Source: Kribbella catacumbae DSM 19601
Lineage (GTDB): Bacteria; Actinomycetota; Actinomycetes; Propionibacteriales; Kribbellaceae
DNA: 64,000 nt
Assembly: GCF_000372465.1 (NCBI RefSeq)
Contig: NZ_AQUZ01000010.1
Coordinates: forward strand, 1-64,000
Reading direction: 5' to 3'
Program-made: the position numbers and the translations under genes
Notes under the pieces: generated by a model
Databases searched by the model: none
What the model was told of the DNA's origin: nothing
Seen by the model: the letters and a program-made list of their open reading frames with translations, nothing else
In this document: positions 16,762 through 44,109 of the stretch, one piece after another
Layout of the letters: the number at the start of each line of letters is the position of its first letter
Numbering within the stretch: position 1 is the stretch's first letter

Positions 16762-18030
16762 ATGACAAGTCGTGCCCTCGCCCCGCCCGCCACCAGCCTG
16801 TGGCGTGACCGCCGGTTCCGGACGTTCTGGTCCGCCCAGGGCGTCTCGGAGTTCGGCGACCGGATCAGCGAGCTCGCCCTGCCGCTGATCGCGGTGACGC
16901 TGCTGAACGCCTCCCCCAGCCAGGTCGGCTTTCTGACCGCCGCGGTGTGGCTGCCGAACCTCGCTTCGCTGTTCATCGGCACCTGGGTCGATCAGCATCG
17001 CGACAAGCGTCCGTTGATGATCGCGGCCGATCTGAGCCGTACCGCGCTGCTGTTGTCGCTGCCGGCGGCGTACTGGCTCGACGTGCTGAGTCTCGGCCAC
17101 CTGTACGCGATCGCGATTCTGGCCGGTACTGCGCACGTCGTTTTCAACACGGCATACGCGTCCTTCTTCGTGCGGCTGGTCAGCCGGGAGCAGTACCTGG
17201 AGGCGGGCAGCAAGCTGTCGGCGACAAGGTCGATCTCCTTCATGGCCGGCCCGGCCGTTGGCGGTCTGCTGATTCAGTGGCTGACGGCACCCATCGCACT
17301 CATCGTCGATGCGTTGTCGTTCGCGTTCTCCGCGGTACAGGTGAGCCGGCTGAAGGTCGCGCCGGGGGACGCCGATGGCGGTGAAGAGTCGTTGCTGTTC
17401 AGGGCACGAGCGGGGATGCGGTACCTGTTGCGGCATCCGTATCTGCGGGTGAGCCTGGGCTGCGCGACCACCGTGAACTTCTTCACCATGATCGGGATGG
17501 CGTTGCTGGTGCTGTTCGCCAGTCGCAACCTGGGCCTGCCCGCTGGCGTCATCGGCATCGCCCTCGGGATCGGCGCGTCCGGCGGGCTGATCGGAGCACT
17601 CGCCGCCAAACCGCTCGCCGAGCTGATCGGCGCCGGCCGGCTGATCGCGATCGGCTCCGTCGTTTTCCCTGCGTCACTGGGGATCGTGGCTGTGGCCGAC
17701 GGACCGGTCTGGATGCGGGCGGGCATCCTTGCCGCTGCGGAGTTCGTGGGTGCGTTCGCGGTCATGTGCTTCGACGTACCGCTGAACTCGCTGCAGGCGG
17801 CGGTGATTCACGACCACATGCGAAGCCGGGTGGCCGGTGCGTTCAGCAGCATCAACTACGGCGTACGGCCGCTCGGCGCGTTGGTTGGTGGCCTCCTCGG
17901 TACCTGGCTCGGTGTCCGGGAGACCTTGCTGATCTCCGCCGCCGGCGGCCTGTTCGCCGTACTCTGGCTGGTCCGCTCCCCCATCATCCACACCCACGAC
18001 CTGGCGGGCCTGGAACCTCCGGCGATGTAG
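16762..18030 (+). CDS. MFS transporter, DHA3-like efflux type
   Basis: This 422-residue protein has about twelve membrane helices. It starts with the typical segment SLWRDRRFRTFWSAQGVSEFGD and has the loop 2-3 motif GTWVDQHRDKRPLM, which resembles the MFS motif A (GxxxDRxxRR). The central region FVRLVSREQYLEAGSKLSATRS and the second half (YGVRPLGALVGGLLG) are typical of the macrolide/drug-efflux MFS group. It is cotranscribed with an ArsR-type regulator. Efflux of a small toxic compound is the likely role; the substrate is unknown. A strongly repeated intergenic region follows it. Confidence 0.85.
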   Translation: MTSRALAPPATSLWRDRRFRTFWSAQGVSEFGDRISELALPLIAVTLLNASPSQVGFLTAAVWLPNLASLFIGTWVDQHRDKRPLMIAADLSRTALLLSLPAAYWLDVLSLGHLYAIAILAGTAHVVFNTAYASFFVRLVSREQYLEAGSKLSATRSISFMAGPAVGGLLIQWLTAPIALIVDALSFAFSAVQVSRLKVAPGDADGGEESLLFRARAGMRYLLRHPYLRVSLGCATTVNFFTMIGMALLVLFASRNLGLPAGVIGIALGIGASGGLIGALAAKPLAELIGAGRLIAIGSVVFPASLGIVAVADGPVWMRAGILAAAEFVGAFAVMCFDVPLNSLQAAVIHDHMRSRVAGAFSSINYGVRPLGALVGGLLGTWLGVRETLLISAAGGLFAVLWLVRSPIIHTHDLAGLEPPAM

Positions 18031-18070
18031 TTATTCGCCATCGACGTCGGTGAATCCCGTGACGACGACG

Positions 18071-18132
18071 CAGGAGCGGCGTGCTGGGGTGGGTGGGTCG
18101 AGCCTCGACGGAGGAGGGGCGATGCGGGATCG
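18071..18132. repeat. 62-bp direct repeat, copy 1
   Basis: This copy matches 18322-18383 at 61 of 62 positions (one G/C difference near the start). The sequence includes GGGTGGGTGGGTCGAGCCTC and ends GATGCGGGATCG. The two copies flank a 22-bp inverted repeat in the gap between convergent genes. Confidence 0.95.
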
Positions 18133-18208
18133 CCATACCCGCAGCCGGTCACCGACGGCCACCGCCGCTGCTCTTCCGGCCGCGCACGCCATCATGGGCC
18201 GCGGGACT

Positions 18209-18296
18209 GTCCCGACCGACAGGACATAGTCCCCGAATCGGTCCGGGCAAGCGTTTGCGCGGCCCGATAATCGCACTATGTCCTGTCGGTCGGGAC
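18209..18296. repeat. 22-bp perfect inverted repeat between direct repeats
   Basis: Arms at 18209-18230 and 18275-18296 are exact complements (core CCCGACCGACAGGACATAGT), with a 44-bp centre. The structure lies between the convergent MFS and marR genes and inside a pair of 62-bp direct repeats. It could end transcription from both sides, but arm length and flanking repeats also fit a small mobile element. Confidence 0.9.
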
Positions 18297-18321
18297 GGCA
18301 TCCGCGACTCGCTCACCTCAT

Positions 18322-18383
18322 CAGGAGCGGCGTCCTGGGGTGGGTGGGTCGAGCCTCGACGGAGGAGGGGCGATGCGGGATCG
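18322..18383. repeat. 62-bp direct repeat, copy 2
   Basis: Second copy of the 18071-18132 repeat. It ends 3 bp before the stop codon of the marR gene. Confidence 0.95.
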
Positions 18384-18386
18384 GGG

Positions 18387-18854
18387 CTAGCTCAGGTCCA
18401 GGTTCAAGCGGGTGAGCAGTCGGGCCAGGTCTGACAGGTCTTGGGGTTCCCAGCGGTCGAGGATTGCTCGGAATTCTGCCTGGCGTTGGGAGCGCATGGC
18501 GCCGAAGCGGGTGGCTCCGGAATCGGTTAGGCGGAGTAGGCGGGCTCGGCCGTCGTCTGGGTCGCCTACTCGTTCGATCAGGCCGAGGGTTTCCAGCTGG
18601 GTGAGGCCTCGGCTGACGGTGGATTTGTCGAGGCCTAATGCCTGCGCCACATCCGACGCGCGGACGCCGGGGCGGCTTCCCGTGGTGCCCAGGTCGATCT
18701 GGGAGATCAGGGCGTAGCCGGCGGCGTCCATTTCTGGGTGGACTCGGCGGGCCAGTTGCATCTGGGCGGAGCGGGAGCGGCGGAAGAGGTTCGAAAGCTG
18801 GTGCTCGACGTCGGCGACCAGCTGCGGGTTGTCCTGCGCCACCAGGTCGTTCAT
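18387..18854 (-). CDS. MarR-family transcriptional regulator
   Basis: This 155-residue protein has the MarR layout: helical dimer region, winged helix with [50 protein letters not shown], and a C-terminal helix pair. The wing residues [10 protein letters not shown] are typical. Its ATG overlaps the end of hisF by 4 bp (18851-18854), so it is translated as the last gene of the hisF unit. That coupling is odd for a regulator. Its target is not evident; a nearby self-operator is not expected because it has no separate promoter region. Confidence 0.88.
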
Positions 18855-43423: not shown

Positions 43424-43560
43424 GCCAGGATAGGCGACTACCTCAAGCCGGGAGCCGGACGCCCATCACATGCCAAAGGCCAGGTCAGCGAGTAGCGACC
43501 CACCTGCTGAGCGTGCGCGGTGTAGCTCGGCGGGGGTTGGTGTGTGGTGGCGGTGCGGAC

Positions 43561-44109
43561 CTAGGCGAGTTCGGTGCGGAGCCACTCGCCGAGGACCTTG
43601 GCACTCGCGTCCACGAGCGCGGGCCAGTCCTTCGCGGCCTCATCGGCCGAGTCGGAGACATGCTTCACGAGCCGCACCGGTACGCCGTACTGACGGCAGG
43701 CGAACACCACGCCGTACGCCTCCATGTCGACCAGGTGAGCCCGCTCGGCCAGCCGAGCCCGGACCACCGGGTCGGTGACGAACACGTCACCCGACGCGAG
43801 CACCGTTCCATCGCCGCCGTCGATCTGCAGGGACTCTTGCGGGTCCAGGCCGATCGCCCGGATCGCCTCCGCGTTGAGGTCGTGGTTGACGACCTCACTC
43901 GGCAGGTAGATCCCGGCGAGACCGTCGCGCAGCGCACCCGTCGTACCGACGTTCAGGACCATCAGGTCGCTGGTGTCGCGGCCGGCCAGCGCCTGCGCGG
44001 TGATCACCGCCGCCGCGGTCTTGCCGACCCCGGTGATGACCACCGGGATGCCTTCCGGAACGTACCGAGCCTCGCCACGCGTCGCGCTGACCACCATGTA
44101 CTCCGTCAC
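43561..44109 (-). CDS. MTA/SAH-nucleosidase-like phosphorylase-superfamily protein
   Basis: This 182-residue protein resembles PNP/UDP-superfamily nucleosidases. ITGVGKTAAAVITAQAL matches the phosphate/ribose-site helix, VLNVGTTGALRDGLAGIYLPSEVVNHDLNAEAI the core, and HLVDMEAYGVVFACRQYGVPVRLVKHVSDSAD carries the ribose-binding MExxG-like Glu and the catalytic Asp (SDSAD). It is shorter than MtnN (about 230) because the N-terminus is compact. The likely reaction is cleavage of a purine nucleoside such as methylthioadenosine. TAGCCT lies 7 nt before GTG 44109, a leaderless start. Confidence 0.8.
   Translation of the reverse strand: MTEYMVVSATRGEARYVPEGIPVVITGVGKTAAAVITAQALAGRDTSDLMVLNVGTTGALRDGLAGIYLPSEVVNHDLNAEAIRAIGLDPQESLQIDGGDGTVLASGDVFVTDPVVRARLAERAHLVDMEAYGVVFACRQYGVPVRLVKHVSDSADEAAKDWPALVDASAKVLGEWLRTELA

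Follow-up and report, generated by a model that had tools for sequence, protein, structure and literature searches.

What occupies the gap between two convergent genes of Kribbella catacumbae in which a pair of long direct repeats frames a perfect inverted repeat? The locus lies in a window of 64,000 nucleotides, here meaning the whole stretch of DNA analyzed (G000:C10:1-64000), from the K. catacumbae genome (G000), which is 9.6 Mb long, high in GC and divided into 151 contigs. The features of the locus are the following.

16762-18030, plus strand: MFS transporter gene, convergent neighbor
18071-18132, plus strand: first 62-bp unit, belonging to a separate family of intergenic repeats
18178-18334: extended stretch, comprising 31 bp to the left and 38 bp to the right of the arms, found whole or in part in most G000 copies of the 88-bp subtype
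18209-18296, no strand: palindromic element of the 88-bp subtype, made of a 44-bp center between inverted arms of 22 bp
18209-18230, plus strand: left arm, identical over its 22 bases to the solo-element consensus arm and to the repeats flanking a nuclease gene on G000:C6
18231-18274, no strand: center of the element, 44 bp, without the GAGCG motif of the common 100-bp elements
18275-18296, minus strand: right arm, perfect 22-bp inverse of the left arm
18322-18383, plus strand: second 62-bp unit, member of the same separate family
18387-18854, minus strand: MarR-type regulator gene, convergent neighbor

The repeats fill the space between the 3′ ends of the MFS and MarR genes. A first-pass annotation of this DNA had described 62-bp direct repeats with one mismatch and a perfect 22-bp inverted repeat with a 44-bp center in a convergent intergenic region, and all of these are present. 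They exceed chance: with up to three mismatches, the 22-mer was found in the window only at the two arm positions and never in 100 shuffles, and the single-strand folding of the region reached a z of −5.67 against shuffled sequences, none of which (0/100) was as good. Rfam at gathering thresholds gave no match within the window. Regarding the neighboring genes, relatives with both the MFS and the MarR gene listed on one contig have some 2 to 8 kb between them, so the close convergent pair seen here, with its gap at 18031-18386, looks derived, probably by a deletion or rearrangement at this place.

The same annotation had also proposed that the 62-bp units and the inverted repeat form a single element or the remnant of an integration event, and this was not supported. 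Searched in eight genomes (E ≤ 1e-5), the 62-bp unit gave 12 matches in G000, 50 in G037, 33 in G013, 11 in G017, 4 in G014, 3 in G028 and none in G030 or G024; its copies are frequently paired, lie near gene ends and, by eye, have no evident palindrome (loci L403-L428). The orthologous locus of G017 contains several 62-bp-like units with the inverted repeat absent between them. The last two of these units are ~159 bases apart by our reading of the alignment, compared with 251 in G000, a difference close to the 88-bp element; because the spacers between the units of the two genomes align poorly, this spacing is no more than compatible with the insertion of an 88-bp element between two older 62-bp units. 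An empty site with one 62-bp copy, which had been suggested as a sign of mobility, was not found. These comparisons identify the 62-bp repeats as probable bystanders, unrelated to the palindromic family.

The suggestion of a small element does stand for the inverted repeat itself, which is dispersed, occurs at varied sites and is missing from some of them in relatives. With up to three mismatches the 22-bp arm was found 94 times forward and 89 times in reverse in G000, in agreement with the expected multiple copies, while a reversed-pattern control gave none. All 41 loci fetched from G000, among the arms listed (100 of 183), contain a complete local arm pair. The inverted repeat of the window is thus best read as one solo member, among ~90, of a family of hairpin-forming palindromes spread throughout the genome. 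The family has two element lengths, a common one of 100 bp and one of 88 bp to which the window copy belongs; the 41 loci held 42 elements of the common kind, 39 of exactly 100 bp and 3 of 101 bp. The 88-bp subtype made up nine rows of 88-89 bp in a comparison of 29 elements (L004 was omitted as a near twin of L003), and additional flanking sequence, up to 31 bp on the left and 38 bp on the right, recurs in most of its copies, so that the unit that spread may have been longer than the element. We also observed two nearly identical copies of this subtype only 756 bp apart (L003/L004, G000:C49:21204-22082) and, in G028, three palindromic elements within ~760 bp with similar centers and flanks, as if duplicated in place (L365, G028:C1:6411900-6413900).

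The arms of the common G000 elements are uniform, with 89-100% agreement per position, and the centers drift: they are variable except for a GAGCG core conserved at 90-97%, a figure somewhat inflated by the use of this motif to orient the elements. Nearly identical whole elements also occur at unrelated sites, as in the pair L027/L058, in which 5 of the 56 center bases differ. Raw counts of gene context, which come without a genome-wide baseline, placed 38 solo copies in convergent, 28 in tandem and 8 in divergent intergenic regions (74 clear cases of 80). No clear target-site duplication was detected in 84 elements at lengths of 2-9 when compared with shuffled flanks (at most 4 against 1.6 expected at length 3, and none from length 5 upward); in old insertions the duplication may have been erased. 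Across the genus, any match to the window-type arm was found in 12 of 38 genomes of the genus, among them G027 (36 + 35), G030 (9 + 10) and G017 (6 + 10; up to three mismatches).

Presence and absence of the elements differ between species at the same site. We searched the joined flanks of five solo sites in the 38 genomes and fetched 18 stretches, 16 of which were aligned (all except L295 and L299); eight of these were empty, four filled and four uninformative (L291, L296, L297, L298). The L048 site is empty in G030, filled with the same arms in G027 and filled with arms of the G028 type in G028. The L031 site carries an element in G027 and none in G028, G030 and G008; likewise, the L050 site is filled in G027 and empty in G028. 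Finally, the L026 site is empty in G014, and the L033 site in both G001 and G011.

A gene accompanies this family. On contig C6 of G000, a single gene lies between two almost identical 100-bp elements, which have identical centers in the same orientation. The called frame encodes 307 residues; the first 23, which overlap the palindrome, are of low confidence, so translation probably begins downstream of the called start. Domain searches and a structural model indicate that the product is an AbiEi-like DNA-binding part fused to an endonuclease domain of the Vsr/EDxHD kind. With Pfam, DUF559 passed its cut-off, whereas MTES_1575 and AbiEi_4 fell short of theirs; AbiEi_4 was nevertheless recovered at E ≤ 0.1 in 19 of 20 homologues, and the PADLOC AbiEi models matched all 20. 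In the AlphaFold model (mean pLDDT 86), residues 24-200 resemble the AbiEi antitoxin 6y8q (Z 9.6, rmsd 9.7), residues 205-307 the catalytic domain of I-Bth0305I (3r3p; Z 13.4, rmsd 2.1 over 95 residues) and residues 203-307 the Vsr endonuclease (1cw0; Z 11.0). Residues E208, D239, H257 and D266 are invariant in the 20 homologues, and we provisionally assign them to the EDxHD motif. NCBIfam returned no family for the nuclease, and a PDB sequence search gave weak matches, the sole sensibly named one being 3hrl (E 0.33). In this one locus the neighbors are a YCII protein and an ABC transporter ATPase, and no AbiEii (DUF1814) toxin adjoins the gene. G000 holds 6 genes of the nuclease family (E ≤ 1e-30) versus ~90 elements. 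When named genomes were searched with the nuclease, the best matches came mostly from Kribbella species.

The linkage between gene and palindrome extends across the genus. We examined 49 nuclease genes from 35 genomes, namely 29 best matches, one per genome (the 30 best-match loci minus L148, which lies at a contig end), and 20 further copies from lower matches. A strong inverted repeat (score of at least 11) was present on at least one side in 44 of the 49 loci and on both sides in 33, compared with 3 of 98 far-flank windows. An 11-mer common to the 5′ and 3′ flanks was found in 44/49 loci, against a mean of 8.8 and a maximum of 18 in 1000 permutations and 11/49 for the far flanks. The arms are lineage-specific and strongly different from one another (e.g., GTCCCGACCGACAGGACATAGT, GTACCGAAGAACGGGTAGT, CTAACGACAGGAGGTAGT, CCGGACCGCCAACACTCACAAAG, CAGCCAGGCAGT), and at the nine chromosomal nuclease positions common to at least two genomes the arms can differ between species at one position. 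In other lineages, the center motif had opposite orientations on the two sides in 6 of the 13 loci that carry it on both. Outside the genus, a repeat scoring at least 11 was found on at least one side in 17 of 31 loci and on both in 6 (null, 12 of 208 windows; the 5′ windows were slightly larger than those of the null), with palindrome-flanked genes in, e.g., Intrasporangium, Arsenicicoccus and Knoellia; the remaining 14 of these 31 genes have no strong repeat. The association of gene and palindrome is well supported by these observations.

The gene's own element is set apart by a further motif. TGTGGA[TC][AG] lies between the 5′ palindrome and the gene in 46 of the 49 loci (e.g., L039, ~595-610) versus 2 of 147 control windows, and was found at only 1 of 168 ends of the sampled elements, that end being the one of the gene's own element. 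On the opposite strand the motif reads as a putative DnaA box (TTATCCACA, TTGTCCACA), going by a table in PMC4285127, and a link to replication or cell-cycle control is possible.

The arm type of most solo copies is that of the nuclease in the same genome. Arms of the AACGGGTAGTRGT type numbered 10, 11, 11, 22, 9, 29, 10 and 4 in the eight genomes in which such arms flank the nuclease and 0, 0, 1, 0, 1, 2, 5 and 4 in eight others, with 1-3 per genome for the reversed-pattern control; the p of 0.0008 for this contrast is optimistic, given that the genomes are related and only some nuclease copies were examined. Two genomes, G010 and G022, have AACGGGTAGTRGT arms without an exactly cognate nuclease. 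For the CGACAGGNNRTAGT pattern the variants were counted by eye. In G028, 49 of 50 matches are the two variants found beside its own nuclease (control 4), and in G017 8 of 10 are the own variant, three of these being the arms of the gene itself (control 2). The share of own variants was 13/17 in G022 (control 8), 7/14 in G012 (control 6) and 5/8 in G025 (control 6), and in G013 2 of 5 fit, both being the gene's own arms. G026 is a mismatch with cognacy: 8 of its 15 matches read ..AGGTAGT, but the gene examined there has ..AGGTGT. Matches in G011 (4), G014 (2) and G037 (1) were at control level (8, 1 and 3).

A second palindromic family, with the arm GCCACCACACACCAA, gave the same general picture, with exceptions to a strict rule, and has one copy in the window.

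43461-43562: second-family copy, with the arm GCCACCACACACCAA at 43537-43551 on the minus strand and GCTGAGCGTG in its center; limits and imperfect second arm set by eye

This family was found in 4 of the 38 genomes, with 20, 19, 7 and 11 matches (control 2 in all). The GCCACCACACACCAA arm also flanks another AbiEi-DUF559 gene of G000, on G000:C75, and a nuclease with this arm is present in G027 too, so that the family occurs in both genomes seen with such a nuclease. It is also present in G028 and G030, where the arms of the nucleases examined are related to this one but not the same, an observation that argues against a strict rule. Similarly, G030 has its 9 + 10 window-type arms yet no intact close nuclease. 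In this genome, 25 of 46 matches to the CGACAGGNNRTAGT pattern, those listed, comprised 12 AGG, 6 ACA, 3 AAG, 2 ACG, 1 AGA and 1 TCG variants, compared with 36 CAG, 13 AAG and 1 TCG for all 50 in G028 (by eye). That G030, whose copy of the G028-type nuclease gene is split, has the more varied arms is a lead, coming from a single genome with a partial listing and other nuclease genes.

Sites shared between species offer a view of how the arm type changes. We found 13 shared-site pairs. Three of them match on a single flank and were set aside; the others represent six sites that match on both flanks. At these six sites, the centers agree better when oriented by their flanks than when reversed, in 10 of 10 pairwise comparisons; they exceeded the 95% level of a single-orientation null at 2 of the 6 sites and that of a best-of-two-orientations null at none (p 0.06 at best). 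Since the centers stay below the stricter null, common descent of the elements at the shared sites is suggested, and independent insertion at hot spots may also account for them. Four of the six sites are shared by G028 with G000 or G027, and there the arms follow the nuclease type of the host. The loci L283, L284, L288 and L290 were chosen as matching G000 sites and are a non-random sample; when G028 stretches were taken regardless of G000, 2 of 20 shared a site with one of the 41 G000 loci (the rule applied found no element in 2 of 21 G028 loci).

The nuclease genes behind these two arm types occupy different positions. In G028, an open nuclease frame with ..CAGTAGT/..AAGTAGT arms lies at one chromosomal position. 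At that position the gene of G027 lacks its N-terminal half, in frame, that of G030 is split over two frames, and that of G000 is an open frame with a stop before the likely start and a change in one otherwise invariant tryptophan; the palindromes of the G000 copy score only 7 and 10, below the threshold, and are decayed. G000 and G027 have a ..CATAGT nuclease at another position, and the sites that they share with G028 carry the ..CATAGT label. This looks like a takeover by one nuclease with re-labelling of the old copies in G000 and G027, a reading drawn from sequence comparison that falls short of proof because the copy of the G028-type gene in G000 is open, and the solo arms of G000 are of the other type despite it.

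We put at about 0.57 the probability that the palindrome families are cognate to genes for AbiEi-nuclease fusions and that the nuclease spreads and homogenizes the palindromes, in a manner similar to REPIN/RAYT but with an unrelated enzyme. According to this model, the fusion gene sits between two copies of its own palindrome, each palindrome family being cognate to one such gene. The AbiEi part would recognize the ~22-bp arms, and the nuclease part, probably as a dimer across both arms, would cut a target site or else within or close to the palindrome. Repair of the break, or copying, would then place the palindrome at new intergenic sites, and the same process, by conversion of the arms, would keep these uniform across the genome as the center drifts. 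The promoter of AbiEi has a pair of 23-bp inverted repeats to which the protein binds (PMC7319586), and an EDxHD enzyme dimerizes on a target of nearly 60 bp (PMC3943268), so the fusion would fit an enzyme that reads both arms.

The strongest alternative, although an unlikely one, is that the palindromes are operators: the AbiEi-like part would act as a regulator of transcription or of the nucleoid and repress its own gene, the dispersed copies would be binding sites or terminators, and protein and sites would co-evolve by selection. Binding to pairs of 23-bp inverted repeats at the own promoter is reported in that source for Rv2827c as well as for AbiEi (PMC7319586), and here the 5′ palindrome lies directly before the gene, the solo copies lie mostly at gene ends, as the counts of 38 convergent, 28 tandem and 8 divergent cases illustrate, and an operator or a regulon would also account for the match of the arms. 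However, an operator has no need of the palindrome on the 3′ side of the gene, and this explanation has also to face the presence or absence of elements at the same site in different species, the nearly identical whole elements at unrelated sites (L027/L058) and the attached endonuclease domain with its invariant acidic and histidine residues. With the AbiEi antitoxin of the type IV toxin-antitoxin system AbiE the protein shares the fold of residues 24-200 and an AbiEi-like DNA-binding part, but here a nuclease domain follows, no AbiEii toxin is adjacent at the one locus G000:C6, and the arms are 44-56 bp apart rather than the 3-13 bp of AbiEi.

It is improbable that the elements are MITEs moved by an ordinary, unfound transposase, with the nuclease gene merely lying between two copies. 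They do resemble MITEs in their fixed short length, inverted ends and intergenic dispersal, and the appearance of the ends had first suggested an IS481-type MITE, an idea given up when a gene was found to lie between two palindromes; but a passenger would not be expected to come as different nuclease lineages at nine shared positions, each with its own palindrome type. Moreover, neither a transposase with matching ends, in the fetched loci, nor a target-site duplication was detected, and the complete arm pair at each of the 41 fetched G000 loci also argues against this explanation. Even less probable are solo copies left by recombination between the palindromes of a palindrome-gene-palindrome cassette, in the manner of solo LTRs. 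The two palindromes around the G000 gene, with identical centers in the same orientation, would suit such an event, but the motif is oppositely oriented in 6 of 13 loci of other lineages, ~90 elements face only 6 family genes in G000, and the DnaA-box-like motif is kept at just 1 of 168 element ends, that of the gene itself. None of the 16 aligned stretches, which are too few to decide, showed a full cassette opposite a solo copy.

The last alternative, a strict REPIN/RAYT system with a tyrosine transposase of the IS200/IS605 kind, we consider very improbable and rejected, as G000 is rich in elements and has no Y1/RAYT transposase. As described in PMC3733652, REPIN/RAYT and TnpA-REP systems (REPtrons, TIRtrons) consist of dispersed inverted-repeat pairs and a flanked low-copy enzyme gene, in several families, and GTAG tags one REP super-family. 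Our elements share with them two spaced inverted repeats between genes, intergenic dispersal, a single low-copy enzyme gene flanked by the repeats and the existence of several families, and several arm types have GTAG near the inner end. Nevertheless, the Y1_Tnp domain (PF01797) was absent from G000, and just one of the 38 genus genomes had it, whereas the same search was positive in 5 of 14 controls. The enzyme here is instead a fusion of AbiEi and a Vsr/EDxHD nuclease, with no HUH/Y1 transposase in G000, and differs also in that the arms of the solo copies mostly track the nuclease type, even at shared sites. Because the defining Y1 transposase is missing in G000, the system works like REPIN/RAYT but is not a member of it. 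The enzymes that share its nuclease half differ from it in other ways: the homing endonuclease I-Bth0305I has the same catalytic fold and EDxHD residues, but our gene is bounded by palindromes and has another DNA-binding part, and Vsr, a mismatch endonuclease, has the nuclease fold but is not, as here, part of a fusion protein flanked by palindromes.

Returning to the preferred reading of nuclease-driven palindromes, its wider form is one that we hold more tentatively and would place below even odds: that this is a widespread actinobacterial system in which the nuclease actively rewrites or spreads the arms at dozens of loci and in which the copies receive a new label when the nuclease changes or is taken over. 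Among the open-licence papers in PMC, we found no description of the pairing of palindromes with AbiEi-nuclease genes. To our knowledge, the spread and uniformity of short palindromic repeats in bacteria have so far been tied to one type of enzyme, RAYT. If our reading is true, a second, unrelated enzyme would have its own repeat families, and the arrangement would have arisen more than once. The natural pairs of enzyme and target, with their presence, absence and change of type across 38 species, would make the mechanism testable, and the finding suggests a function for many genes that are labelled merely AbiEi or DUF559.
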